Positions 49,305-64,000 of a stretch of 64,000 nt of DNA are shown piece by piece (the first letter of the stretch is position 1; every line of letters begins with the position of its first letter). Below the pieces are notes generated by a model that saw only the letters and a program-made list of their open reading frames with translations, was not told the origin of the DNA and ran no database searches. A program made the translations under genes and the position numbers. Source of the stretch: Cupriavidus malaysiensis. GTDB lineage: Bacteria; Pseudomonadota; Gammaproteobacteria; Burkholderiales; Burkholderiaceae. Location: NCBI RefSeq assembly GCF_001854325.1, contig NZ_CP017754.1:1488001-1552000 (forward strand), in the 5' to 3' direction.

Positions 49305-50705
49305 TCAGTCCAGCGCGCGGTTCTTCGACTCGATGTCCACCAGGAAGATGGCCAGGGCCGCCACGGCCAGGAAGGATGACAGCAGCGCCAGCGCGAGCGT
49401 GAACTGGCTGGCCATGATGGGGGCGACGATGGAGGGGGCGAAGAGGCCGCCGAAGCGCGCCATCGCGCCAGCGGTGCCCATGCCGCTGGCGCGCAGGTCG
49501 GTCGGGTAGACCTCGGGCGTGAAGGCATAGAGTGCGCCCCAGGTGCCGAGCAGCGCGAAGCTCATCAGCAAGGTCGAGCCGACCACGATGGCGGGGGACT
49601 GGCCCAGGCTGTAGAGCATGCAGCCCGCTGCGCTGAGCAGCAGGAAGCCGATCAGGGTCGGCTTGCGGCCCCAGCGCTCGACGCCGTGGGCGGCCAGCGC
49701 GAAGCCGGGCAGTTGTACCAGCGCCAGCAGGATCAGGAAGACCTGGCCACGCATGAAGCCGAAGCCCTGGCCTGCCAGCTTCACCGGAAGGTAGACGAAG
49801 ACGCCGTAGTAGGCGACAGAGATGAGCATCCAGGCGGCCAGCAGGCAGAGGGTGCGGCGCCGGCATCCCGCGGCGAACAGCGCCAGGACCGATTTGCGCT
49901 CGGCCTGCTGCGGTTCCAGCGGCGGGATCTCGGCGCTGACGCGATTGGCGGCTGCCACGCGCCGCAACACCGCGCGCGCTTCGTCGGAACGGCCCGAGCG
50001 GTTCAGGTAGAGCGGCGATTCTGGCACGAAGAGGCGGCACACCACGCCGACCAGGGCCGGGATGCCGGTGACGAAGAAGATCAGCCGCCAGGCGCTGTCG
50101 CCATGCGTGGTGGCGATCAGGGCCAGCACGGCGAGCAGGATGGTGCCGACCGCCCAGAACGACTCCAGCAGGACCAGCCAGCGGCCGCGGCGGTCGGCGG
50201 GGAGAAACTCGGCCATCATGGTGTAGTCGACCGGCAGGGTGCCGCCGACGCCGATGCCCGTCAGCAGGCGCAGCAGCAGCAGCCACTGGAAGTCCGGCGC
50301 GAAGGCGGAGGCGACGCCGCAGGCCGCGTCGATCACCACGGCCATCATCAGCACCGGGCGGCGCCCGATGCGGTCGGCCAGGCGGCCGAACACGAAGGCG
50401 CCGACCAGCATGCCGACGAAGAACATCGTCCCGGTCTGCAAGGCTGTCGGAACCGGGATGCCGAAGGTCGAGGCGATCGAAGGCGCGGTGAACCCGATCG
50501 ACAGCACCTGCATCGCGTCGGCCAGCCAGACCAGGCCGAAGATGACGAACAGGCGATACTGGAACTTGCCGACGCCGGCCGCGCGGATACCTTGCTCGAT
50601 CGTGATGGTGTGCGACATCGCCGGCCTCGGGCCTGGCTGGGAGGGGGAGCCGATCGTCGCCTCTGCGATGGTCGGGGATGGCAGGGATGAAATGGATGAT
50701 GACAT
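49305..50705 (-). CDS. MFS transporter, NiaP-type niacin transporter
   Basis: A 466-residue major facilitator with 12 predicted helices. The segments [44 protein letters not shown] and [27 protein letters not shown] match the SV2/NiaP group of aromatic-acid transporters. NiaP proteins of Ralstonia and Burkholderia have been shown to carry nicotinate or nicotinamide. Position next to the nic cluster suggests it supplies nicotinate for catabolism. AGGTGG lies before ATG 50705; a second in-frame ATG at 50618 gives a shorter N-terminus. The 456-base region upstream holds a triple 8-bp repeat and no gene. Substrate inferred from context. Confidence 0.85.
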
Positions 50706-51002
50706 ATTGTCCACCTGTTCTGTAAGGCTGGTTCCTGAATCCGGAAGCCAACGTCCATCGCGGCGAGGCCGGGCGCATGATGCCATGCGCGCCACATCGC
50801 AATGAAACGTGGTGACGACTGCAGTCTGGAAAAGCGAGAACTATGCCGGGGGCGCCGGCAGCGGGTTCATCGGGCGCATGTGATACGGATACGTCATCGT
50901 CTCTCCTTGTTGTCTACCCATGGTGCGTTTCTCGTCTTGTCTCCGGGCCGGTACGCCACGCCTGTGCGCCGTCCTTGTGCCGGCATGCACCGTGGCGCGT
51001 CT

Positions 51003-51052
51003 CGCTGCATGTATGTAGTGCTCGCTACATATCGATTCAGTGTGCGCTACAT
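51003..51052 (-). promoter_or_regulatory. Three spaced 8-bp repeats upstream of the NiaP-type gene
   Basis: CGCTGCAT (51003-51010), CGCTACAT (51023-51030) and CGCTACAT (51045-51052) recur at 20- and 22-base spacing, about two helical turns. ATGTAG-TGCTCG-CTACAT (51013-51030) is also a perfect 6-bp inverted repeat. On the minus strand a CTGAAT -35 and TACATA -10 with 17-base spacing overlap these repeats. They look like operator sites for the transporter promoter, 300-350 bases upstream of its start codon. Confidence 0.5.
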
Positions 51053-51161
51053 GAGGGGTGCGGTAAGGTCGATCGCCGGCAGGCCGGCTTCGCTTCGCTC
51101 GTTCCGTGGTGGCGCCTGCGCGGGAAGGCGGTGCGCGGCCAGCCTGCCGCGCGGATCTCCG

Positions 51162-54100
51162 TCAGGGGCGGTGAGCGGGAGCGGCGCGCAGGCGCGCAAC
51201 CGTGGCATCGACGTCCTGCCACGCGGGTTTGTCGGGGGCAAAGCGTGCGCGCAGGTACCTTGCAAGGTCGGCGACCTGGCCGTCGTCCAGGCTGTCCGCA
51301 TAGGACGGCATCGCGCCGAGCGCGCTGTCGGGCGGCGCCGGCATGCCTTGCAGCAGCACCTGGATCACATTGTCGGGGCGGTCGGCGTGCAGGTTCGTGT
51401 TCAGCGCCAGGGAAGGTTTCACGCCGAACTGGCGCATGCCCTGCCCGGACTGGTGGCATACCGCGCAGGCGCTCTGGTACAGGCGCGCAGCGGGGCCGCT
51501 GAGCGAGGCGGCGGCTTGCGCGCTGCGCCGCTCGGCCTGCGCGGCCAGCGCGTCGATGCGCTCGGGTGCGGGAGGCGGCGCGGCGAACGAGGCGATGTAG
51601 TGGGCGATGGCCTGCACGTCAGATGCGGGCAACTGGGTGAGTTCCTCCACCACCGGCGCCATCGGGCCGGCGGCGGCGCCATGATGGGCGGCGTAGCCGC
51701 CGCGCAGGTAGGTGAACAAGGCCTCCTCGGTCCACGGCACCGGTGCGCGCGACAGGGCGGTCAGGGCGGGCGCTTCCCAGCCCTCGGCGCTGCCCCCCGA
51801 CAGGTAGTGGCGGCCGCCTTTTTCCGCGCCGAGCGCGTTGCGCGGCGAATGGCAGGCGCTGCAATGGCCCAGGCCTTCCGCCAGGTAGGCGCCGCGGTTC
51901 CACAGCGGCGAGCGCGCGGCGTCGGGGCGGAATGGCGCGTTGCGGTGGAACAGCAGGTTCCAGCCCGCCAGCAGCGGCCGCAGCTGGAACGGGAAGGCGA
52001 GTTCGGTGCGGGGTGCGGTGGCCCGCACCGGCTCGGCCGACATCAGGTAGGCGTACAGCGCCTGCAGGTCGGCATCGCTGATCTTGGCGAAGGCCGTATA
52101 GGGGAAGGCGGGATACAGGCGGTGGCCGTCGCGGTGCACGCCTTCGCGCATGGCGCGCTCGAAGGCGGCGAACGACCAGGTGCCGATGCCGGTCTCGGCA
52201 TCGGGGGTGATATTGGTGCTGTACACCGTGCCGAACGGCGTTTCGAGCGCCAGCCCGCCGGCGTTCTTCGGGCCGCCGGGAGCGGTATGGCAGACGGCGC
52301 AATCGCCCGCGGCCGCCACCAGCCGGCCGCGCTCCAGCGTGGCCGCGGAGTAGAAGCCCGGTTCGGGTGGCGCCACCGGTGCGAGCGGTGCGCGCCAGGG
52401 CAGCACGGTGGCGCACAGGCTCGCCGCCGCTGCCGCGCCGGCGGCAAGCCAGCCGCGCCGGCGGCGCGCCTTGCCGGCAGCTTGCGCCGCCAGCGCCAGG
52501 CGCAGGCGGTCGGCGCTGAACGGCGGTTCGCGCAGGCGCACGCCGGTGGCGTCGAAGATGGCGTTGGCCACTGCCGCGGCGGCCGGCAGCGTGGCCGCGG
52601 CACCCGCCGCCAGCGTGGGGCGCGAGGCCAGGGCGCCGGCCATGCGGATGTCCGGCGCCCTGGTCCTGGTGGCAGGGAGAGCGGCTGTGGCCGGCGCCTG
52701 CAGTGCCGAGGCGGCCGGAGTCCACGGTGCCCCTGATGCCGCCCAGGTGTCGAACGCCGGCGGCGGAGCGGTCAGTTGCTGTGCGGTCTGCGCTGCCAGT
52801 TGCTCCATCGGCGGCGAGGTCGCGGAGGTAGGTCCGGGCGCCGCGGCTTCACTGTCGTGGCCGACGGTGACACGCGTGACCGCGAGCTCACCGGTGGTGC
52901 CGTCTATCTCCACTTCGGCCACCCAGGCCGACCAGCTCGGCGCCGCCTCGTCTTCCACTGCATGCGCGTAAGCGAAGCCGCGGCCGCGGCGCACATTGCC
53001 GCCACCGCCCGTCGCGCGGACGGGCGGTGGCTCCGAGGACCATCCGGCGCGCTGCGCCACCTCGCGGATCAGTGCCGCGCCGCGCGCGTCGTCGAGGTGG
53101 TCGAGCCGCAGCGACACCGGGTCGACCCGGGCGCCGACGGCGATCTCGTCGAAATGCGACTCCTGGGCGAAGACCCGGGCGCGTGCGTTGGCCAGGCTGT
53201 CGCCCCGGCCATCGGCCGATCGCGTGCCGGCCGCGCTCGCGTCGGTGCCGGCGGCGTGGATCTCGATATGGGGGATGCGATAGGGCAGCAGCGCTGTGCT
53301 GGGCGCACACGCGTTTCCGCTATCGATGGTTTCGGCGAACTCGTCGAACTCGGCGACGTCGGCGACCGGTGCCGCCGTGCGCGTCAGCCAGAGCGCCAGC
53401 GGTACGGCCGGGGCACGGGTGCCGCCGAGCGTGGCGGCATAGGCGTGGAGCGCGGCACCGCTGTGCGCGCTGTCGATCCGCCAGTCGAGCGTGGCATCGG
53501 CGAGGCCGGCATCGGCTGCGCTCAGGGTTCGCCGCACGCATGCCTGCGCCGCCTGTGCCAGCAGCGCGGCGTCGGCGGCGGCATGGTGCGCGAGCAGGGC
53601 GGTGTCGGCGCCATCGTGCGCGCTCTGCCAGCACAGTAGCGTGACCTGTCGCTCGTCGATGTCGAGCAGGGCGGCGAGTTCGGCGCGCAAGGCGCCCGGG
53701 CGGGTGCTGGGCAGCCAGACGCGCAATGTGCCGTCGCGCCAGTCGGCGATCGCGGTGCAGGTAGCGGAGTCCGGCTGCATGCCGGCCAGCGGCCAACGGT
53801 AGCGCCGCGACTGGCGCGTCTGCGCCTGCTCGAATGCGGCGGCGGCGTTGCCGTGCCGCGCCAGCGTCCGCCGTGGCACCGGCGCAGGGTCCGGCGCGGG
53901 CGGCGGAGCCCAGCGGGCGCACAGCGCCTTGGCGGCTTGCGCGGCCTGCTCGGCCGAATCGGCCACCACGCCCGCAAAGTCCTGGCGCACGACCACCGTC
54001 CGCGCGCCCGGCGCAGCCGCAGCGGCTTGCGTATCCGCGCCAAGCAGGCGTGCCACGAGCGGCCGCCCGCCCGACCAGCGCAGGCCGGGCGGGCGCAACA

Positions 54101-54188
54101 CATGCGCGGCCAGGCTGTGCGCCGGAGGCGGCTGGTCTCCTGGCCACGTGGCGGGCGCTGCCGGGTGCGGAGCCTGGGTGTCGTTCAC
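51162..54188 (-). CDS. Triheme cytochrome c with degenerate molybdopterin-like N-terminal domain (NicB-like)
   Basis: 1,008 residues from a GTG start that overlaps the nicA stop (GTGA). Residues about 20-560 align with the molybdopterin subunit at 59843 (for example ADWRDGTLRVWLPS beside ADWRDEGLTVWSG) but lack its first 230 residues. The catalytic motif GAGES is AAGAA here, with Ala530 at the Glu position, so this domain should be inactive. A helix GWLAAGAAAAASLCATVLPW follows an RRRR stretch, then three c-type haem sites: CAVCH 630-634, CSACH 776-780, CAVCH 908-912. Predicted role: membrane-anchored periplasmic electron acceptor of nicotinate dehydrogenase, with the degenerate domain as a docking scaffold. 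This role is inferred; the sequence features are seen. Confidence 0.85.
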   Translation of the reverse strand: MNDTQAPHPAAPATWPGDQPPPAHSLAAHVLRPPGLRWSGGRPLVARLLGADTQAAAAAPGARTVVVRQDFAGVVADSAEQAAQAAKALCARWAPPPAPDPAPVPRRTLARHGNAAAAFEQAQTRQSRRYRWPLAGMQPDSATCTAIADWRDGTLRVWLPSTRPGALRAELAALLDIDERQVTLLCWQSAHDGADTALLAHHAAADAALLAQAAQACVRRTLSAADAGLADATLDWRIDSAHSGAALHAYAATLGGTRAPAVPLALWLTRTAAPVADVAEFDEFAETIDSGNACAPSTALLPYRIPHIEIHAAGTDASAAGTRSADGRGDSLANARARVFAQESHFDEIAVGARVDPVSLRLDHLDDARGAALIREVAQRAGWSSEPPPVRATGGGGNVRRGRGFAYAHAVEDEAAPSWSAWVAEVEIDGTTGELAVTRVTVGHDSEAAAPGPTSATSPPMEQLAAQTAQQLTAPPPAFDTWAASGAPWTPAASALQAPATAALPATRTRAPDIRMAGALASRPTLAAGAAATLPAAAAVANAIFDATGVRLREPPFSADRLRLALAAQAAGKARRRRGWLAAGAAAAASLCATVLPWRAPLAPVAPPEPGFYSAATLERGRLVAAAGDCAVCHTAPGGPKNAGGLALETPFGTVYSTNITPDAETGIGTWSFAAFERAMREGVHRDGHRLYPAFPYTAFAKISDADLQALYAYLMSAEPVRATAPRTELAFPFQLRPLLAGWNLLFHRNAPFRPDAARSPLWNRGAYLAEGLGHCSACHSPRNALGAEKGGRHYLSGGSAEGWEAPALTALSRAPVPWTEEALFTYLRGGYAAHHGAAAGPMAPVVEELTQLPASDVQAIAHYIASFAAPPPAPERIDALAAQAERRSAQAAASLSGPAARLYQSACAVCHQSGQGMRQFGVKPSLALNTNLHADRPDNVIQVLLQGMPAPPDSALGAMPSYADSLDDGQVADLARYLRARFAPDKPAWQDVDATVARLRAAPAHRP

Positions 54189-54682
54189 GGCTGCGCTCCT
54201 GCTTCGTTCCTGCGCTGCAGCAATGCGGCGCGCTGCACCGCGCGCACGATCTCGACATGCGTGCCGCAGCGGCACAGGTTGAAGCGCAGGGCCTCGCGGA
54301 TCTCGTCCTCGCTCGGGGCCGGGTTGTCCGCCAGCAGTGCCTTGGCGGTCATGATCATGCCGTTGAGGCAGTAGCCGCACTGCGCGGCCTGCTCGTCGAT
54401 GAAGGCCTGCTGCACCGGGTCGGGCCGCTGCGGCGTGCCGAGTCCCTCCAGCGTGGTGACGGCGCGCCCCAGCACGGCCTTCACCGGCAGCACGCAGGCG
54501 CGCGCGGCGAGGCCGTCCACCAGCACCGTGCAGGCCCCGCACTGGCCCAGTCCGCAGCCGTACTTCGGGCCATTGCAGGCGAGGTCGTTGCGCAGGATAT
54601 AGAGCAGTGGCGTGTCGGGCGCCACGCAGAGCGTGTGCTCGGCGTGGTTGACATCGAGGGTCAGGGGGCGGGGCGTGTTCAT
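54185..54682 (-). CDS. nicA: Nicotinate dehydrogenase small FeS subunit
   Basis: 165-residue subunit of the xanthine-dehydrogenase family carrying two [2Fe-2S] clusters. The plant-type ferredoxin cluster is Cys43, Cys48, Cys51 and Cys63; the second is Cys102, Cys105, Cys137 and Cys139 in CGYC...CRC. It passes electrons from the molybdenum centre to haem in hydroxylation of nicotinate to 6-hydroxynicotinate. The next gene (NicB-like cytochrome) overlaps by four bases. nicC is 126 bases upstream. The catalytic partner is encoded at 59843. Confidence 0.92.
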   Translation of the reverse strand: MNTPRPLTLDVNHAEHTLCVAPDTPLLYILRNDLACNGPKYGCGLGQCGACTVLVDGLAARACVLPVKAVLGRAVTTLEGLGTPQRPDPVQQAFIDEQAAQCGYCLNGMIMTAKALLADNPAPSEDEIREALRFNLCRCGTHVEIVRAVQRAALLQRRNEAGAQP

Positions 54683-54808
54683 CGGAGCAAGGGGGCGGTT
54701 TGCACTGCACGCGTCGCGGCGCCGTTCCCCTTCATGAGCGAGGGGATGCGGCGCCAGGCACCGGTACCGCGTGGTCGCGGTGCGCCGGCTGGGTGGTTCA
54801 GGCGGACA

Positions 54809-56068
<1,260 letters not shown>

Positions 56069-56217
56069 GGAACAATGCAATGAACCTATGGAAAACCCTG
56101 ATGCTTAGATGGGGTCGGCATGTTGCTGCGCAATATTGGCGAATTTAACCGCGAAAACGGGGAATCGAATATTCAGCGTGCACTGAATGAGTGCCGCCTT
56201 GCTGGCGTGGAATCTGT

Positions 56218-56246
56218 TTGCTTATATAGAGTGTGTACACTACAAT
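56218..56246 (+). promoter_or_regulatory. nicE promoter with NicR-like operator
   Basis: -35 TTGCTT (56218-56223) and -10 TACAAT (56241-56246) with exactly 17 bases between. The same 12-mer AGTGTGTACACT lies at 56230-56241 between the two hexamers, in the same orientation relative to transcription as in the nicC promoter. Transcription would start near 56253. The 350-base divergent region 55970-56319 contains only these elements. Confidence 0.72.
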
Positions 56247-56319
56247 CGACCGCAGCCGCAGACAGGCGCCTGGCGCGATGGATCGGAGCGGCGGGTAGGC
56301 ATTCCCCGGAACAGACAAG

Positions 56320-57087
56320 ATGACGGAGTCGACAGTGCAGAACGTTTTCCGAATCGGCCAGATCGTGCCGAGCTCCAATACGACCATGGAGACCGAGATC
56401 CCCGCCATGCTCACTGCGCGGCAACAGATCCGCCCCGAGCGCTTCACCTTCCATTCGAGCCGCATGCGCATGAAGAAGGTGGTCAAGGAGGAACTGGCCG
56501 CGATGGACGCGGAGTCCGACCGCTGCGCCGTGGAGCTGTCCGACGCGCGCGTGGACGTGCTCGGCTACGCCTGCCTGGTGGCCATCATGGCGATGGGCCA
56601 TGGCTACCACCGCCAATCTGAGCGGCGGCTGCAGGCGCATACCGCCGGGAACGGCGGGGCGGCGCCGGTGATCACCAGCGCGGGCGCGCTGGTCGATGCG
56701 CTCAAGGTGATCGGCGCCAGGCGCATCGCCGTGGTCGCGCCCTATATGAAACCGCTTACCGAGCTGGTGGTCGACTACCTGCGCCATGAAGGCTACGAGG
56801 TGGTGGACTACCGCGCGCTGGAGATTCCCGACAACCTCGAGGTAGGCCGCCACGATCCGGCCAGGCTGCCGGGCATCGTCGCCCAGATGGACATTGCCGA
56901 GGCCGATGCCATCGTGCTGTCGGCCTGCGTGCAGATGCCGTCGCTGCCCGCGGTGGCGAAGGTGGAGGCGATGACCGGCAAGCCGGTGGTCACCGCCGCC
57001 ATTGCCACCACCTATGCGATGCTGCGCGCGCTGGACCTCGAGCCGGTGGTGCCGGGCGCGGGCGCGCTGCTGTCGGGCGCCTACTGA
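56320..57087 (+). CDS. nicE: Maleate cis-trans isomerase
   Basis: Isomerises maleate to fumarate, the last step of the pathway. It is 255 residues of the Asp/Glu racemase superfamily. The two catalytic cysteines are Cys85 in GYACLVAIMAMG and Cys203 in LSACVQMPSL. It begins MTESTVQNVFRIGQIVPSSN with the phosphate-free carboxylate-binding PSSNTTMETEIP loop. It heads the plus-strand unit nicE-nicD-nicX-nicF-nicB2 with nicD 10 bases later. Confidence 0.93.
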   Translation: MTESTVQNVFRIGQIVPSSNTTMETEIPAMLTARQQIRPERFTFHSSRMRMKKVVKEELAAMDAESDRCAVELSDARVDVLGYACLVAIMAMGHGYHRQSERRLQAHTAGNGGAAPVITSAGALVDALKVIGARRIAVVAPYMKPLTELVVDYLRHEGYEVVDYRALEIPDNLEVGRHDPARLPGIVAQMDIAEADAIVLSACVQMPSLPAVAKVEAMTGKPVVTAAIATTYAMLRALDLEPVVPGAGALLSGAY

Positions 57088-57097
57088 GGACCGGACC

Positions 57098-57931
57098 ATG
57101 AGCACCTTCCTGTATGGCGGAAACGTCCTGGCCAACGGCATCCGCCAGCACTACCTGCGCTATGGCGGCAGCGAGGGCGCGCGCGCCGCGCGCGATGCCG
57201 TGATCATCGTGCCGGGCATCACCAGCCCGGCCATCACCTGGGGTTTCGTCGGCGAGCGCTTCGGCCAGTGCTTCGATACCTATGTCATCGACGTGCGCGG
57301 GCGCGGCCTGTCCGCGGCCGGCGACACGCTCGACTACAGCCTGGACGCGCAGGCCGCCGACGTGATCGCGCTGGCCGGGGCGCTGGGCCTGCAGCGCTAT
57401 GCCATCGTCGGCCACTCGATGGGCGGGCGCATCGGCGTGCGCGCCGCACGCCAGCAGCCGGCCGGGCTGACGCGGCTGGTGATGGTGGATCCGCCGGTCT
57501 CCGGTCCGGGGCGCCGGGCGTATCCCGCGCAACTGCCCTGGTACATCGACTCCATCCGCCTGGCGCGCGCGGGCACCGATGCGGAGGGCATGCGCCGCTT
57601 CTGCCCGACGTGGACCGAGGAGCAGTTGCGCCTGCGCGCCGAGTGGCTGCACACCTGCGACGAGCGCGCGGTGCTGGCCAGCTTCGACGGCTTCCACCAG
57701 GACGATATCCACGGCGACCTGCCGCACGTGGCCGTGCCCACGCTGCTGATGACCGCCGGCCGCGGCGACGTGGTGGGCGCGCAGGACGTGCAGGAAATCC
57801 GTGCGCTGCTGCCGGGCGTGCAGGTCAGCCATGTGGCGGATGCCGGCCACATGATCCCGTGGGACGACGAGGCGGGTTTCTACCGCGCCTTCGGCGACTT
57901 CCTCGGTGCTGCGCTGGTGGCTTCGGCCTGA
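57098..57931 (+). CDS. nicD: N-formylmaleamate deformylase
   Basis: Alpha/beta hydrolase removing formate from N-formylmaleamate to give maleamate. It is 277 residues. The nucleophile elbow is GHSMGG with Ser107; the C-terminal His is in ADAGHMIPWDD, and an acidic residue lies in TAGRGDVVG between them. The start is ATG 57098, ten bases after the nicE stop. Position between nicE and nicX matches P. putida nicEDX context. Confidence 0.92.
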   Translation: MSTFLYGGNVLANGIRQHYLRYGGSEGARAARDAVIIVPGITSPAITWGFVGERFGQCFDTYVIDVRGRGLSAAGDTLDYSLDAQAADVIALAGALGLQRYAIVGHSMGGRIGVRAARQQPAGLTRLVMVDPPVSGPGRRAYPAQLPWYIDSIRLARAGTDAEGMRRFCPTWTEEQLRLRAEWLHTCDERAVLASFDGFHQDDIHGDLPHVAVPTLLMTAGRGDVVGAQDVQEIRALLPGVQVSHVADAGHMIPWDDEAGFYRAFGDFLGAALVASA

Positions 57932-57954
57932 TCTTTGCCTTCGGAGGAACAGAG

Positions 57955-59034
57955 ATGTCCGTAAGCGACTACGACCTGACCCGGGCGTGGCAGCAGGTGC
58001 TGGCACTGTCGAAGCTGGAGCCCGGCCAGACCGTCACCGTGCTGACCGGTGCCGCCACGCATCCGCAGACGCTGCGCACCGCGCTGGTGGCGGCCGCATC
58101 GATGGGCGCCATCGTCAACCGGCTGGACCTGCCGCCGGTCAACGGCGACAAGGCACTGAGCCGCGATGCGCTGGCCTACCTCGGCACCACGCCGCTGACC
58201 GGCAACGCGGCCGCCATCGCTGCGCTCAAGGCGAGCGACCTGGTGCTCGACCTGATGACACTGCTGTTCTCGCCCGAGCAGCATGACATCCTCTCCGCCG
58301 GCACCCGGATCCTGCTGGCGGTGGAGCCGCCCGAGGTGCTCGTGCGCATGGTGCCGACGGCAGCGGACCGCGCGCGCGTGAAGGCTGCCACGGCACGCCT
58401 GGCGCGCGCGCGCCGGATGCAGGTCGTCTCCGACGCCGGCACCGACCTGTGCTGCCGCCTGGGTGAGTTCCCGGCCATCAGCGAATACGGCTTCGTCGAC
58501 GAAGCCGGCCGCTGGGACCACTGGCCGAGCGGCTTCGTGCTGACCTGGCCGGACGAGGGGGGCACCGACGGCACCATCGTGCTGGACCGCGGCGACATCC
58601 TGCTGCCGATGAAGTCCTATGTGCAGGCACCGATCCGCGTCACGGTGGAGGCCGGCTACGTGACCGCCATCGAAGGCGGCCTGGATGCCGAACTGCTGGC
58701 CGACTACATGGCCTCGTTCAACGATCCCGAGGCCTATGCGATGTCGCATGTCGGCTGGGGCCTGCAGCCGCGCGCGAGCTGGGCGGCGCTGGCCATGTAC
58801 GACCGCGAGGCCACCATCGGCATGGACGCGCGCGCCTACGAAGGCAATTTCCTCTGCTCGTTCGGCCCCAACAACGAAGCGGGCGGCAGCCGCACCACCG
58901 CCTGCCACATCGATATCCCGATGCGCCGCTGCACCGTGAGCCTGGATGGTGAGCCGGTAGTGGTGCGCGGCCAGGTGATGGATGGACACCACGCACCCGT
59001 CGCCACACGGTTCAAGGAGAAGCGCCATGCATGA
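57955..59034 (+). CDS. nicX: 2,5-dihydroxypyridine 5,6-dioxygenase
   Basis: Fe(II) extradiol-type dioxygenase that opens the pyridine ring of 2,5-dihydroxypyridine to N-formylmaleamate. It is 359 residues. The metal triad is His265 (SHVGWGL), His318 and Asp320 (TACHIDIPM), the same numbering as reported for P. putida NicX. A strong GGAGGAA lies before ATG 57955. nicF overlaps the last eight bases. Confidence 0.95.
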   Translation: MSVSDYDLTRAWQQVLALSKLEPGQTVTVLTGAATHPQTLRTALVAAASMGAIVNRLDLPPVNGDKALSRDALAYLGTTPLTGNAAAIAALKASDLVLDLMTLLFSPEQHDILSAGTRILLAVEPPEVLVRMVPTAADRARVKAATARLARARRMQVVSDAGTDLCCRLGEFPAISEYGFVDEAGRWDHWPSGFVLTWPDEGGTDGTIVLDRGDILLPMKSYVQAPIRVTVEAGYVTAIEGGLDAELLADYMASFNDPEAYAMSHVGWGLQPRASWAALAMYDREATIGMDARAYEGNFLCSFGPNNEAGGSRTTACHIDIPMRRCTVSLDGEPVVVRGQVMDGHHAPVATRFKEKRHA

Positions 59035-59704
59035 GGAGGTCCAGACCTACCAGCGGCAGGGCTTCGGCACCGCGATGGAGATCGTGCCGCCGTTCGGGCT
59101 GCTGGTCATCGATTTCGTCAATGGCTTCGCCGACCCCGCGGTCTTCGGCGGCGGCAATATCCCCGAGGCCATCCGCCGCACGCAGCCGCTGTTGCGGGCG
59201 GCGCGCGAGCAGGGCTGGCCGGTGGCGCACAGCCGCATCGTGTTCGCCGACGACGATGCCGACCACAATATCTTCACGCTGAAGGTACCCGGCATGCTGA
59301 CGCTGAAGGAGCACGGCCACAACAGTGCCATCGTGCCGGAGCTGGCTCCGGTCGCCGGCGAACTGGTGGTGCGCAAGACGGTGCCATCCGCCTTCTTCGG
59401 CACCGCGCTGGCGGCCTGGCTGACGCAGCGCGGCGTGCGGACCTTGCTGGTGGCCGGCTGCGTCACCAGCGGCTGCGTGCGCGCCAGCGTGGTGGACGCG
59501 ATGTCGCTGGGCTTCCGCCCGCTGGTGGTCTCGGACTGCGTGGGCGACCGCGCGCTGGGCCCGCACGCGGCCAATCTGTTCGATATGGAGCAGAAGTACG
59601 CCACGGTGCTCAGCCGCGACGAGGCGCTGGCACAGATCGCGCAGATTGCGCAGATTGCGCAATCTGCGCGGAACGGCGCGGCGGGCAGGCGTGCCGAAGC
59701 CTGA
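59027..59704 (+). CDS. nicF: Maleamate amidohydrolase
   Basis: Isochorismatase-like cysteine hydrolase converting maleamate to maleate and ammonia. It is 225 residues. The catalytic triad is Asp29 (LLVIDFVNGF), Lys117 (VVRKTVPSAF) and Cys150 (VTSGCVRASVVDA). AAGGAGA precedes ATG 59027, which is inside the nicX 3' end. The C-terminal 25 residues carry a QIA-QIA-QIA repeat encoded by 9-bp tandem units, an addition to the usual fold end. Confidence 0.92.
   Translation: MHEEVQTYQRQGFGTAMEIVPPFGLLVIDFVNGFADPAVFGGGNIPEAIRRTQPLLRAAREQGWPVAHSRIVFADDDADHNIFTLKVPGMLTLKEHGHNSAIVPELAPVAGELVVRKTVPSAFFGTALAAWLTQRGVRTLLVAGCVTSGCVRASVVDAMSLGFRPLVVSDCVGDRALGPHAANLFDMEQKYATVLSRDEALAQIAQIAQIAQSARNGAAGRRAEA
59633..59668 (+). 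repeat. 9-bp tandem repeat at the nicF 3' end
   Basis: Units CAGATCGCG, CAGATTGCG, CAGATTGCG and CAATCTGCG encode the QIA repeats near the NicF C-terminus (about residues 203-214). Copy number changes would add or remove whole QIA triplets without frameshift. Confidence 0.8.
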
Positions 59705-59842
59705 GCGGCACCGCGCGCGCCGGGCCTGGCCTCATGCTTCCAGTTGGTCCGGCGCGTCGTCGTACCCAAGCTATGGCAGGATACCGGCAGCCATGGCCGC
59801 CCGCGCGGTGGCCGGTGCCCGGCGGTAAAGCATCCAGGATCC

Positions 59843-62185
59843 ATGACGGCGACTCTCTTCGACACCAATCCCGATCCCCGGCACGATCCCCGGCACGATG
59901 CCGCTGCGACGAGCTCCTCCCCGCGCGCTCAGCGCCTGGCGCTGCTGCAGGCCAGCGGCGTGCTGCTGGTGACGCGTGCGCCGCAGGCGGCGGCGCGGCC
60001 GGCGCCGGGCCAGCCGGGCGCCGCCTCGGACTACGTGCCGGCCTTGCCGGACATCTTCGTGGCGGTGCGCGAAAGCGGCGAGGTGCTGGCCTTCAACGGC
60101 CACGTGGACCTGGGCACCGGTATCCGCACCGCGCTGGCGCAGATCGTGGCCGAGGAACTGGATGTGCCGCTGTCGCGCGTGCGCATGGTGCTGGGCCATA
60201 CCGAGGCGACCCCCAACCAGGGGCCGACCATCGCCAGCGCCTCGATCCAGATCTCCGCCATACCGCTGCGCCGCGCCGCGGCGCAGGCGCGTGCGTGGCT
60301 GCAGGCGCGCGCCGCGCAGCGGCTCGGTGTGCCTGCCGACGCGCTCGAGGCCGAGGACGGCGCATGGCGCGTAGCGGGTCCGGCGGATCCGTGCGGGACG
60401 CGGGAACGGATCGGCTACGGGGCGCTGGTGGCGGGAGAGCATATCGAGCTGCCGCTGGCCGACGACGTGCCCACCAAGCCGGTCGAGTCCTACCGCATCG
60501 TCGGGCGCGCGGCGGGGCGCGTCGACATCCCGGGCAAGGTATATGGCGAGCTGACCTTCGTGCACGACGTGCGTGTGCCCGGCATGCTGCATGGACGGGT
60601 GGTGCGCCCGCCGTATGCCGGCCGCGACAGTGGCGGCTTCGTCGGCACCAGCCTGCTGGAGGTCGACCGAGCCTCCGTCGCCGGGGTGCCAGGCCTGGTC
60701 GCGGTGGTGGTGCAGGGCGACTTCGTCGGCGTCGTGGCCGAGCGCGAGGAGCATGCGGTGCTGGCGGCCCGCCGCCTGCGCGTGCGCTGGAAGCCGGTGC
60801 CGCCGCTGCCCGCGCTCGACGACCCCGAGCCCGCGCTGTGCGCCAATCCCGCCACGCGCCGCGCGCTGCTGGACGAGGGCGCAACGGTGCCGGCGGGGGC
60901 CGCCGCCACGCTGGCGCGGCGCTTCGTCTGGCCCTACCAGATGCACGGCTCCATCGGGCCCTCGTGCGCGCTCGCCGACTGGCGCGATGAAGGCTTGACG
61001 GTCTGGTCCGGCACGCAGAATCCGCATGTGCTGCGCATCGACCTGGCACGATTGTGCGGGCTGGACGAGGCGCACATCGAGATCGTGCGCATGGAGGCGG
61101 CCGGCTGCTATGGCCGCAACTGTGCCGACGACGCCAGTGCCGATGCGGTGCTGTTGTCGCGTGCCGTGGGCCGTCCGGTGCGCGTGCAGCTATCGCGCGA
61201 GCAGGAGCACCTGTGGGAGCCGAAGGGCGCGGCGCAACTGATGGATGTCAGCGCCACGCTGGGCGCCGGCGGCGAACTGCTGGCTTACGACTTCGTCAGC
61301 CGCTATCCGTCCAACGATGCCCCGACGCTGGCGTTGCTGCTCACCGGGCAGGTGTCCAACGCACCGCGCACGCTCGAGATGGGCGATCGCACCGCCGTGC
61401 CGCCCTACGCTTATGCCAGCCGCCGCATCGCCTGCGATGACACCCCGGCCATCGTGCGTGCTTCGTGGCTGCGCGGCGTCTCGGCATTGCCGAACACCTT
61501 CGCGCACGAAGCCATGATCGATGAACTGGCGGCCTCGGCGGGCGCCGATCCCTTGGATTTCCGCCTGCGGCATCTGCCAGACGAGCGCGCCGCGGAACTG
61601 GTGCGCGCCGTGGCCCGGGCGGCGGGCTGGCAACGCGGCGCGCGCGGCTCGCGTGGCGTGCCGGACGCCGACGGGCGCCTGCGCGGACGCGGCGTGGCCT
61701 ACGCCCGCTATATCCACAGCCGCTTCCCGGGCTTCGGCGCGGCGTGGGCGGCGTGGATCCTCGATCTCTGCGTCGATGCGGCCAGCGGCAGCATCCGCGT
61801 CGAACGGATCGTCGTGGGCCAGGACACCGGCATGATGGTCAACCCGGACGGCGTGAGGCACCAGGTCCACGGCAATGTGGTGCAGGCACTGAGCCGCGTG
61901 CTGAAGGAGCAGGTGCGCTTCGACGGTGCCGGCGTGGCCAGCCGCGAATGGGGCAGCTACCCCCTGCTGACCTTCCCGGAGATCCCGCCGATCGAGGTGG
62001 TGCTGGTGCCGCGCCAGGCGGAGCCGCCGCTGGGGGCGGGAGAATCCGCCTCCCTGCCGGGCGCGCCGGCCGTGGCCAACGCGCTGTTCGATGCCACCGG
62101 CCTGCGCCTGTGCCGGCCGCCGTTCACCCCCGAGGCCGTGCAGGCCGCGCTGGCGGCCCGCGATCACGGCGAGCGCGGAGGCTGA
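59843..62185 (+). CDS. Molybdopterin-binding catalytic subunit of nicotinate dehydrogenase (NicB-like, no haem)
   Basis: 780-residue aldehyde oxidase/xanthine dehydrogenase-family protein with permuted order as in IorB/NicB: an early molybdopterin segment GHVDLGTGIRTALAQIVAEELDVPLSRVRMV (about 83-113), then a hammerhead domain starting YRIVGRAAGRVDIPGKVYGEL, then the rest of the molybdopterin domains. The catalytic Glu is Glu734 in GAGES. There is no CxxCH motif. It is the size of the molybdopterin part of P. putida NicB (about 1,190 residues with its cytochromes). Residues 8-20 contain a DPRHDPRHD duplication. It is last in the nicE unit, 138 bases after nicF. Predicted to pair with NicA and the cytochrome at 51162. 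Confidence 0.88.
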   Translation: MTATLFDTNPDPRHDPRHDAAATSSSPRAQRLALLQASGVLLVTRAPQAAARPAPGQPGAASDYVPALPDIFVAVRESGEVLAFNGHVDLGTGIRTALAQIVAEELDVPLSRVRMVLGHTEATPNQGPTIASASIQISAIPLRRAAAQARAWLQARAAQRLGVPADALEAEDGAWRVAGPADPCGTRERIGYGALVAGEHIELPLADDVPTKPVESYRIVGRAAGRVDIPGKVYGELTFVHDVRVPGMLHGRVVRPPYAGRDSGGFVGTSLLEVDRASVAGVPGLVAVVVQGDFVGVVAEREEHAVLAARRLRVRWKPVPPLPALDDPEPALCANPATRRALLDEGATVPAGAAATLARRFVWPYQMHGSIGPSCALADWRDEGLTVWSGTQNPHVLRIDLARLCGLDEAHIEIVRMEAAGCYGRNCADDASADAVLLSRAVGRPVRVQLSREQEHLWEPKGAAQLMDVSATLGAGGELLAYDFVSRYPSNDAPTLALLLTGQVSNAPRTLEMGDRTAVPPYAYASRRIACDDTPAIVRASWLRGVSALPNTFAHEAMIDELAASAGADPLDFRLRHLPDERAAELVRAVARAAGWQRGARGSRGVPDADGRLRGRGVAYARYIHSRFPGFGAAWAAWILDLCVDAASGSIRVERIVVGQDTGMMVNPDGVRHQVHGNVVQALSRVLKEQVRFDGAGVASREWGSYPLLTFPEIPPIEVVLVPRQAEPPLGAGESASLPGAPAVANALFDATGLRLCRPPFTPEAVQAALAARDHGERGG

Positions 62186-62198
62186 GGCGGGGCTGGCG

Positions 62199-62687
62199 CT
62201 AGCGTTCGTCGTCGGCGCCGCCGCGCTCGTCGAATTCGCTCATCTTGCGCAGCAGGTAGGTCACCGCCACGCGTTCGGCCGGGTTCAGGCCGCCGAAGGT
62301 CTGCTCGGAGATGCGCTGGGCGAACGGCACGGTCTCGCGCACCAGGTCGAGGCCGGCCGGCGTCAACGTGACCACCACCTTGCGGCGGTCGTTGGGATCG
62401 TGCGAGACCGCGATCAGCTTGCGCGCCTTGAGCCGTTCGATCACGCCGCGCACGGTGGCCTGGTCGATCGCGGTGGCGCGCACGATCTCGTTGAGCGAGC
62501 AGGATTGCCGCTCATTGACCGCGCACAGCACTACGAACTGCGCGGCGGTCAGCTGCGAATCCGGGATGGTCTGCTGGAAGATCGCCACGTGGCGCTGGTA
62601 GGCGCGGCGCAGCAGGTGGCCCACCTGCTCGGTGAAGTCGTAGCCGGTGTCGGCCTGGCCGGCGGGCTGGTCGGGAGAAGAGGGCAC
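62199..62687 (-). CDS. MarR-family regulator, NicR-like
   Basis: A 162-residue MarR protein from GTG 62687 (upstream extension possible to 62816; neither start has a good ribosome-binding site). The winged helix is at about 62-108: SCSLNEIVRATAIDQATVRGVIERLKARKLI then the wing DPNDRRKVVVTLT. Flanking helices form the dimer. In P. putida NicR represses nicCDEFTP and is released by 6-hydroxynicotinate; BpsR does the same in Bordetella. It converges on the nicB2 gene with 13 bases between stops. It is the likely reader of the operators at 56040 and 56230. Confidence 0.85.
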   Translation of the reverse strand: MPSSPDQPAGQADTGYDFTEQVGHLLRRAYQRHVAIFQQTIPDSQLTAAQFVVLCAVNERQSCSLNEIVRATAIDQATVRGVIERLKARKLIAVSHDPNDRRKVVVTLTPAGLDLVRETVPFAQRISEQTFGGLNPAERVAVTYLLRKMSEFDERGGADDER

Positions 62688-62827
62688 GTCGATCGTGGTG
62701 CGAGAGAGGAGTGCCCCGAGTATACCGACGAAGGCATGATGCCGATGCGTGATCCCGGCAAGGCGTGCCGGTGACGCAGCGCGGCCCGCTGCGGGACCGG
62801 CTGCGTCGTCGGGCACCCGGGCGGGGT

Positions 62828-63898
62828 TCAGTCGACGGTGATACCCGCGCTCTTGGCCACCTTGCCGAAGCGCTCGTACTCCTGCAGCGTCAGCGCCTGC
62901 AGCGCCGCCGCGCTGGAACCCTGCGGGCTGAAGCCGGCCTGCACCAGCTTCTCGCGCACGGCAGCCTGGCCCAGTGCCTCGACGAAGGCAGCGTTGAGCA
63001 CTTGCACCACCGGCGCCGGCAGGTTGGCCGGGCCGTACACGCCGAACCAGGGATCGACCGCGTAGCCGGGCAGGCCGGCCTCGGCCAGGGTCGGCACGTT
63101 GGGCAGCGAGGGCGAGCGGTTCTTGCCCGCCACCGCGAGGGGACGCAGCTTGCCGGCCTGGATGTGCGGCAGCGAGGCCGGCAGGTTGTCGAACATCACC
63201 TGCACGTGGCCGCCCAGCATGTCGTTGATGGCGGGGCTGCTGCCCTTGTAGGCCACGTGGACCAGGCTGGTGTGCGTCATCTGCGAGAACATCGCGCCGG
63301 CCAGGTGCATCGAAGTGCCGGCGCCGGCGGTGGCGAAGGTCAGGCCGGGATGGGCCTTGGCGTAGGCGATCAGCTCGGGCACGCTCTTGACCGGCAGCGA
63401 GGGGCTGACCTCCAGCACGATGGTCGAGTTGCCCAGCAGGCTGATGGCGGTGAAGTCCTTGCGCGGGTCGAAGGGGACGTGCTGGTAGATGTGCGGGTTC
63501 AGGGCGTTGGTCGAGATGGCGCCGAAGCCGATGGTATAGCCATCCGGCGCGGCCTTGGCCACCGCGTCCATGCCGATGTTGCCGCCGGCGCCAGGCCGGT
63601 TTTCCACCACCACCGGCTGGCCCAGCTTCTGCGCGACCTTCTCGCCCACGGTGCGCGCCACCAGGTCGGTGGTGCCGCCGGCGGCGTAGGGGACGATGAA
63701 GCGGATGGGCTTGGCGGGGAAGTCGCCGGCGGCATGCGCGGCCGGCAGCGCCAGCGCCGCCAGGCCGCCGCCGAGCGTGCCGGCCAGCGCCGCCGTCAGC
63801 AGCCGGCGGCGCCGGCGTGCCGGGGCGCCGGACGTGCCGGACGTGCCGGACGCGGCAGGCTGGTGCGGATGCAGTGTGGGTGCGGACAGGGTTGCCAT
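62828..63898 (-). CDS. Bug-family tripartite tricarboxylate transporter substrate-binding protein
   Basis: A 356-residue periplasmic binding protein of the Bug (TctC-like) family. The signal is unusual: about 33 hydrophilic residues with SGTSGTSG tandem units, then RRRRRLLTAALAGTLGGGLAALALPAAHA, with cleavage near residue 55. The mature part has the Bug signature FPAKPIRFIVPYAAGGTTDLVAR and VVENRPGAGGNIGMDAVAKAAPDGYT. AGGAGAGA lies upstream of ATG 63898. The partner TctAB membrane genes are not in the window. It could bind nicotinate or an intermediate by context, but Bug genes are often orphans, so this is uncertain. The right edge (63899-64000) shows nothing. Confidence 0.88.
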   Translation of the reverse strand: MATLSAPTLHPHQPAASGTSGTSGAPARRRRRLLTAALAGTLGGGLAALALPAAHAAGDFPAKPIRFIVPYAAGGTTDLVARTVGEKVAQKLGQPVVVENRPGAGGNIGMDAVAKAAPDGYTIGFGAISTNALNPHIYQHVPFDPRKDFTAISLLGNSTIVLEVSPSLPVKSVPELIAYAKAHPGLTFATAGAGTSMHLAGAMFSQMTHTSLVHVAYKGSSPAINDMLGGHVQVMFDNLPASLPHIQAGKLRPLAVAGKNRSPSLPNVPTLAEAGLPGYAVDPWFGVYGPANLPAPVVQVLNAAFVEALGQAAVREKLVQAGFSPQGSSAAALQALTLQEYERFGKVAKSAGITVD

Positions 63899-64000
63899 CT
63901 GGGAGTCTCTCCTTGCTTGGTATTGTCTGGCATTGTTTCTGCCGGGGCAGGCCGCGCCGCGAAGCGAGGCAGGGCGCACAGCATACGGCACCGCGCGCAG

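Follow-up and report, generated by a model that had tools for sequence, protein, structure and literature searches.

A putative three-part nicotinate dehydrogenase in Cupriavidus malaysiensis with a degenerate molybdopterin-like domain in its cytochrome subunit

Within a stretch of 64,000 nucleotides from Cupriavidus malaysiensis (contig NZ_CP017754.1, positions 1,488,001 to 1,552,000; hereafter the window), part of a genome of 7.95 Mb on 3 contigs, a nicotinate degradation (nic) cluster holds two NicB-type genes, one for an intact molybdenum (Mo) subunit, NicB1, and one for a cytochrome, NicB2, that is preceded by a Mo-like domain devoid of catalytic motifs. This raises the question of why a cytochrome should retain such a dead domain. 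NicAB of Pseudomonas putida is said to carry its Mo and tri-haem parts in one active chain; the same pathway and the same two parts are met here, however on separate chains. We consider it rather probable that NicA, NicB1 and NicB2 form a three-part nicotinate dehydrogenase in which a pseudoenzyme forms the N-terminal part of NicB2 and is selected as a structural element, most likely as a dock. Judged by its gene cluster, this enzyme probably starts the breakdown of nicotinate (vitamin B3). Among the matches listed, the closest named relatives of NicB1 and NicB2 belong to Cupriavidus.

The nicB1-type gene (59843-62185, plus strand) encodes a protein of 780 residues. As a previous sequence-only reading of the locus had described, it is a complete permuted Mo subunit that is free of haem motifs: MoCoBD_1 and MoCoBD_2 score well over their Pfam cut-offs and GAGES is found at residues 731-735, with Glu734 encoded at 62042-62044. 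With both MoCoBD domains and the catalytic Glu motif, NicB1 has the features of a Mo subunit of the xanthine oxidase family, and its best solved sequence relative is the Mo chain (C) of the Gluconobacter membrane-bound aldehyde dehydrogenase 8gy3. The nicB2-type gene (51162-54188, minus strand, GTG start) encodes 1008 residues and was characterized by translation, Pfam, a PDB sequence search and an AlphaFold2 model. A degenerate molybdopterin-like domain (residues 26-570; 52479-54113, minus strand) is followed, after the residues RRRR, by a hydrophobic segment (residues 579-598; 52395-52454, minus strand), which scores weakly in hydropathy (all 19-residue windows at or below 1.6) and is likely a single membrane anchor with its N-terminal side inside, and by a tri-haem cytochrome c part (residues 612-1005; 51174-52355, minus strand) with CxxCH at residues 630, 776 and 908. 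The boundaries of both genes and the three haem motifs behind a single helix were thus correctly read before; the strands are added here. Whereas the cytochrome domains of NicB2 are strong, MoCoBD_1 matches only below the Pfam threshold. Its three CxxCH motifs and its fold mark the C-terminal part as a tri-haem cytochrome subunit of the alcohol dehydrogenase type; the best solved sequence relative of this part is chain A of 8gy3, which aligns with the NicB2 model from residue 578 onward. A search with NicB1 matches the Mo-like part of the nicB2 gene (E 6.8e-44, 36% identity) from NicB1 residue 249 onward, and NicB2 lacks a counterpart to roughly residues 1-240 of NicB1, in agreement with the N-terminal loss claimed previously. 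The missing lobe is the one that carries GHVDLGTG in NicB1 (60098-60121, plus strand). A chance or frameshift origin of the NicB2 frame was rejected, as the open frame and the two-gene pattern recur across many genera.

The Mo-like domain of NicB2 is degenerate well beyond its catalytic residue. AAGAA is located at residues 527-531, and Ala530 (52599-52601) aligns opposite Glu734 of NicB1; next to this Glu loss, which had already been noticed, four further active-site motifs are gone. Homologues were taken as the best 120 of 141 for NicB2 and the best 120 of 7940 for NicB1. Five motifs (GHVDLGTG, QxHxSxGPxC, GxYGRN, RASWxRG and GxGES) are kept in none of the 98 proteins of the dead class among the matches listed, a set that includes two proteins which are probably other cytochromes without a Mo domain (P0115, P0118) and a few partial proteins. 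In the same order, the motifs are present in 15, 15, 13, 15 and 15 of 15 fused NicB proteins and in 117, 120, 120, 89 and 120 of the 120 listed NicB1 proteins. For the 30 genomes of the genus with fetched sequences, all five were found in NicB1 of every genome (30/30) and in NicB2 of none (0/30). Hence, by its cofactor-binding motifs and catalytic Glu, NicB2 does not qualify as an active Mo subunit of the xanthine oxidase family. As a broader measure, 236 columns with a conservation of 95% or more among 48 active sequences (28 fused, 20 NicB1) were compared with 18 dead rows. At NicB1 residues 60-235, 40 of 46 such columns survive in less than 20% of the dead rows, and the N-terminal lobe is missing in the aligned rows. 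Farther along, the dead rows have lost 10 of 18 columns at residues 351-400, 16 of 34 at 401-470, 16 of 34 at 471-560, 6 of 23 at 561-640, 10 of 19 at 641-700 and 9 of 26 at 701-780. The lost positions include Q366, H368, Y423, G424, R425, N426, R539, W542, R544, G545, E734 and S735. What the domain retains is mainly a core at NicB2 residues 340-445 and the ANAIFDATG helix at 541-549. The idea that it still binds cofactor or substrate in another way would draw on these conserved core residues and on the predicted fold. Considering the absence of all five motifs in 98 of 98 proteins and of the lobe, we regard it as very improbable: 35 columns are at least 90% conserved within the 18 dead domains, none of the columns conserved to 90% in these rows has a residue differing from the active consensus, and there is therefore no sign of a new active site.

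The two proteins occur together. Among 60 genomes of the genus, NicB2 was found in 41, NicB1 in 41, both in 40 and either in 42, so that the proposed pair of a catalytic subunit and a motif-less cytochrome holds in 40 of the 42 genomes with either. G347 (78% complete) has only NicB2 and G351 (86% complete) only NicB1; in G335 and G347 the NicB2 match comprises the cytochrome part alone, the contig ending there in G335 and the match beginning at contig base 3 in G347. The split arrangement is also present in other Burkholderiales and in relatives of Halomonas. A first labelling of the best 80 of 595 named loci gave 65 as fused and 13 as possibly split; the remaining 2, in which no cytochrome frame was labelled, are a fused locus (L046) and a fragment (L085). 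Second frames with identical score in L047, L048 and L087 were counted as the same gene. Two of the 13 (L056, L087) are fused with GAGES, which leaves 11 loci of the dead type. Eight of these have a separate NicB1, seven with GxGES plus L031, where the gene is cut by the end of the flank; the contigs of the other three (L067, L071, L073) end too soon to show it. The eight belong to Bordetella, Alcaligenes, Advenella, Achromobacter, Caballeronia, an Oxalobacteraceae, Halomonas JB37 and Vreelandella venusta. In none of the 65 fused loci was a separate NicB1 seen beside the fused nicB within the available flank, which is short in some, and the Pseudomonas nic clusters found have a fused NicB and no separate NicB1 in those loci. 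Of the 65 fused loci, 16 are in nic clusters; the rest, those of Paraburkholderia among them, mostly have nothing but nicA beside them in the flank, so that nicotinate is no more than a putative substrate for them. The split clusters of the two Halomonadaceae, L031 (Halomonas JB37) and L074 (Vreelandella venusta), have a less eroded dead domain, with NicB1 bit scores of 225-230 compared to 57-165 for the other dead-type loci; these two may stem from transfer or represent an early branch.

Across 300 genomes of the order, 10 have a Mo protein of the NicB type with an E value of 1e-200 or lower: five are split with both parts (G000, G119, G133, G204, G237), four are fused (G102, G171, G179, G255), and the tenth (G093) has a three-gene form consisting of a NicA-like protein, a Mo subunit and a cytochrome without Mo domain, a form that G133 carries as a second cluster. 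Some cytochrome match was obtained in 81 of the 300 genomes. Inspection covered the genomes of the nine best places as well as G178, G269, G060, G234, G093 and the second G133 cluster; the weaker cytochrome places in G178, G269, G060 and G234 are plain cytochromes without a Mo domain.

If the Mo-like domain of NicB2 does not catalyze, is it then maintained? Its ratio of nonsynonymous to synonymous substitutions (dN/dS) of 0.29, calculated according to Nei-Gojobori with 15 of 406 pairs left out for dS outside 0.05-1.2, is far below 1 and goes down to 0.16 at residues 321-380 and 401-460: the dead domain is under purifying selection. Even the Caballeronia form, the shortest full form examined, retains some 270 aligned residues of a Mo-type core, and in the AlphaFold2 model the N-terminal part of NicB2 has the fold of a Mo subunit of the xanthine oxidase family, like which it apparently still folds. 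Against a selected structural part speaks the rate of change. Both branch lengths and dN/dS show the domain to change much faster than its partners; its dN/dS is about 2.2-fold that of NicB1 (0.13) and higher in 391 of 391 pairs, although these pairs are non-independent as genomes are shared between them. It is eroded further in Caballeronia and G119, as tolerated ballast would be, and the cytochromes of related three-gene systems have no dead domain at all. Moreover, the alignment used for the model included active fused NicBs (14 of its 64 rows; for Caballeronia, 11 of 34), so that the prediction may be biased towards an active fold. All but the last of these points would suit a domain without a role beyond folding, which has been eroding since NicB1 took over catalysis and is kept only through its fusion to a needed cytochrome. 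Weighed against the low dN/dS, the core kept in Caballeronia and the 35 conserved columns, such ballast appears rather unlikely to us.

An interface role fits the pattern of selection, and docking at the membrane is the best candidate mechanism. In this proposal, NicB1 would hold the molybdenum cofactor and hydroxylate nicotinate, the substrate being suggested by the cluster. NicA, a [2Fe-2S] subunit of 165 residues (54185-54682, minus strand; Pfam Fer2 and Fer2_2) whose stop overlaps the nicB2 start in GTGA, would carry the electrons on its [2Fe-2S] clusters, and NicB2 would receive them on its c-type haems at the membrane. The dead domain, a Mo-subunit fold minus the N-terminal lobe and the five tested cofactor and catalytic motifs, would likely act as a dock that keeps NicA and NicB1 beside cytochrome and membrane, and would thereby do in the split enzyme what the covalent link does in fused NicB. 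No export signal was seen by eye in NicA and NicB1, and the helix of NicB2 follows RRRR; the dead domain is therefore probably cytoplasmic, with the haems on the other side, c-type haems being attached on the outer side of the membrane. Such a location would bring the dead domain to the site at which NicA and NicB1 would bind, matching the docking account. The topology is a puzzle in itself, since the Mo, Fe-S and dead domains seem to be cytoplasmic and the c-type haems outside, so that the electrons would have to cross the membrane, and the same puzzle applies to fused NicB.

A further question is how the split arose. Trees of the Mo part were built with L046 and 27 of the 65 loci labelled as fused (26 fused and 18 NicB1 in a mixture-model run); dead rows numbered 22 in the cytochrome trees and 18 in a Mo tree with dead domains, in which the rows of L061, L091 and L094 include out-of-gene sequence upstream of the true start. 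The flank-cut NicB1 of L031 was excluded from the Mo trees, and P0120-P0122, P0113, P0052, P0059, P0115 and P0118 as well as eight more rows in the cytochrome run with all 22 dead rows were excluded during tree building. P0119 was rejected as outgroup, being a NicB1. All p values below are only rough because the groups were named after the trees had been inspected. In the Mo tree the three-gene form falls outside fused NicB and NicB1, with a warning of long branches, and this suggests that fusion came first and re-splitting later. NicB1 forms one clade weakly (71/31), and in the tree with dead domains the NicB1 of L074 is placed outside the others; NicB1 plus the fused NicBs of Paraburkholderia is supported at 99/100. 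All fused proteins as one clade obtained p 0.065, and 0.41 under the mixture model, so that, by the Mo tree, NicB1 may once have been fused or may never have been.

The sequence-only reading had proposed that one fused nicB was duplicated within a single lineage and that the two copies then lost complementary parts; this is a possible origin of the pair and one of two live accounts. In the other, NicB1 derives from a different NicB lineage, either the fused Paraburkholderia type or one that was never fused, and joined the nic cluster, after which the resident fused NicB lost its Mo function without any duplication in place. We give this second account a chance somewhat short of even. It agrees with the link between NicB1 and the Paraburkholderia fused NicBs, which also have a similar N-terminal KPAxGQPG stretch, with the cytochrome tree, which disfavours the same link for the dead type (approximately unbiased test, p 0.04 without Caballeronia and 0.014 with all 22 dead rows), and with the mixture-model Mo run, which disfavours NicB1 plus the fused NicBs of gammaproteobacterial nic clusters (p 0.033). 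However, the cytochrome tree has weak resolution and likewise speaks against the dead type joining the latter group (p 0.035), and a clade of dead Mo domains plus NicB1 is allowed (p 0.60), just as fused NicB as one clade is not rejected by the mixture-model run. That allowed clade counts for the duplication, which we hold to be about a one-in-three matter: the dead Mo domains form one clade (98, again with long branches warned of), and the dead type held as one clade in the cytochrome tree is still not rejected (p 0.165 and 0.068). What tells against it is the conflict between Mo and cytochrome affinities and the free cytochrome trees, in which the dead type does not come out as a single clade (Caballeronia falls among gammaproteobacterial fused NicBs at 96; three label changes in two later trees). 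A fused-but-dead intermediate was also found neither among the 15 fused proteins nor in the odd fused loci L055, L056, L086 and L087: candidates tried as such, namely long proteins apparently without GAGES, carry GVGES or similar, and L055, L086, L087 and the cut L056 carry GAGES. It is tentatively conceivable that the dead Mo domain and NicB1 form a pair, much like the two active Mo subunits of many relatives; a pseudoenzyme of the xanthine oxidase family would then be the membrane dock of its own active relative and bring the electrons of NicA to the haems, in an enzyme built from halves of two NicB lineages.

The split into NicB1 and NicB2 is already in print. Nicotinate hydroxylases are given as tripartite (NicA, NicB1, NicB2) for Burkholderia gladioli and Bordetella (PMC10269826), and the cluster of Delftia acidovorans Cs1-4 is given as marR, nicT, nicB2, nicA, nicC, nicE, nicD, nicX, nicF, nicB1 (PMC4572682); these are the same three genes as here, and the Delftia order nearly matches that of the window, where the MarR gene adjoins nicB1. 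The relevant passages of these two papers give gene names only, and those of PMC6837509 mention nicA and nicB only. Neither a full-text search of a collection of open-access papers nor these passages of PMC10269826 and PMC4572682 yielded any account of the dead Mo domain of NicB2. Although 8gy3 is the best solved match for both proteins, its cytochrome chain of 440-444 residues leaves no room for a Mo-like domain, unlike NicB2. The unfused operons L162 and L163 and a second cluster of the same genome, L097, likewise consist of three genes, with Mo subunits 38-53% identical to NicB1, but their cytochrome lacks the dead domain. For L162 and L163, of 11 query proteins only NicA, NicB1 and the parts of NicB2 matched; their Mo subunits are 51-53% identical to NicB1, and that of L163 (row L102) branches close to the root of the NicB tree. 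L097 (G000:C2:2748000-2762000) comprises a tri-haem cytochrome without Mo domain, a NicA-like protein and a Mo subunit that is 38-40% identical to NicB1 and has, by eye, an N-terminus like those of the twin-arginine translocation pathway; with weak matches to flavin adenine dinucleotide (FAD) monooxygenases adjacent, it is perhaps another N-heterocycle dehydrogenase. Two records stand out by their filing: L035, a contig filed as Frankia sp. RB7, has a fused nicB with Bradyrhizobium-like motifs and is perhaps misnamed or contaminated, and P0334, a record assigned to the fungus Aureobasidium melanogenum, shares 88% identity with a Paraburkholderia NicB.

The genes for NicA, NicB1 and NicB2 lie in a nic catabolic cluster (49305-62816). 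The minus strand carries nicT, nicB2, nicA and nicC at one end of it and nicR at the other; nicE, nicD, nicX, nicF and nicB1 lie between them on the plus strand. Several of these names rest on cluster order. Family match and order point to a nicT-like MFS transporter (49305-50795, minus strand). A nicC-like FAD monooxygenase (54809-56050, minus strand) matches FAD hydroxylase families, has relatives in other clusters and is named by an order as in Delftia. The nicE-like gene (56320-57087, plus strand), with relatives in the EutA/arylmalonate decarboxylase family, would by cluster order encode maleate isomerase. It is followed on the plus strand by a nicD-like alpha/beta hydrolase (open frame 57002-57931, likely start near 57098 by eye) and a nicF-like amidohydrolase (58982-59704), both named by family match and order, and, between them, a nicX-like gene for 359 residues (57955-59034) named by order only. 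A nicR/bpsR-like regulator (62199-62816, minus strand) matches MarR families; beyond it, at 62828-63991, a periplasmic binding protein of the tripartite-tricarboxylate type was seen by eye.

For annotation it is relevant that some database records name either protein nicotinate dehydrogenase subunit B, while by motifs only NicB1 looks catalytic. The short forms of the Caballeronia type are natural deletions for mapping which part of the dead domain matters. If true, our reading would mean that a Mo hydroxylase has been divided between a subunit that is active and a pseudoenzyme incorporated into the electron acceptor, an arrangement that is kept in several families of Burkholderiales and in Halomonadaceae.
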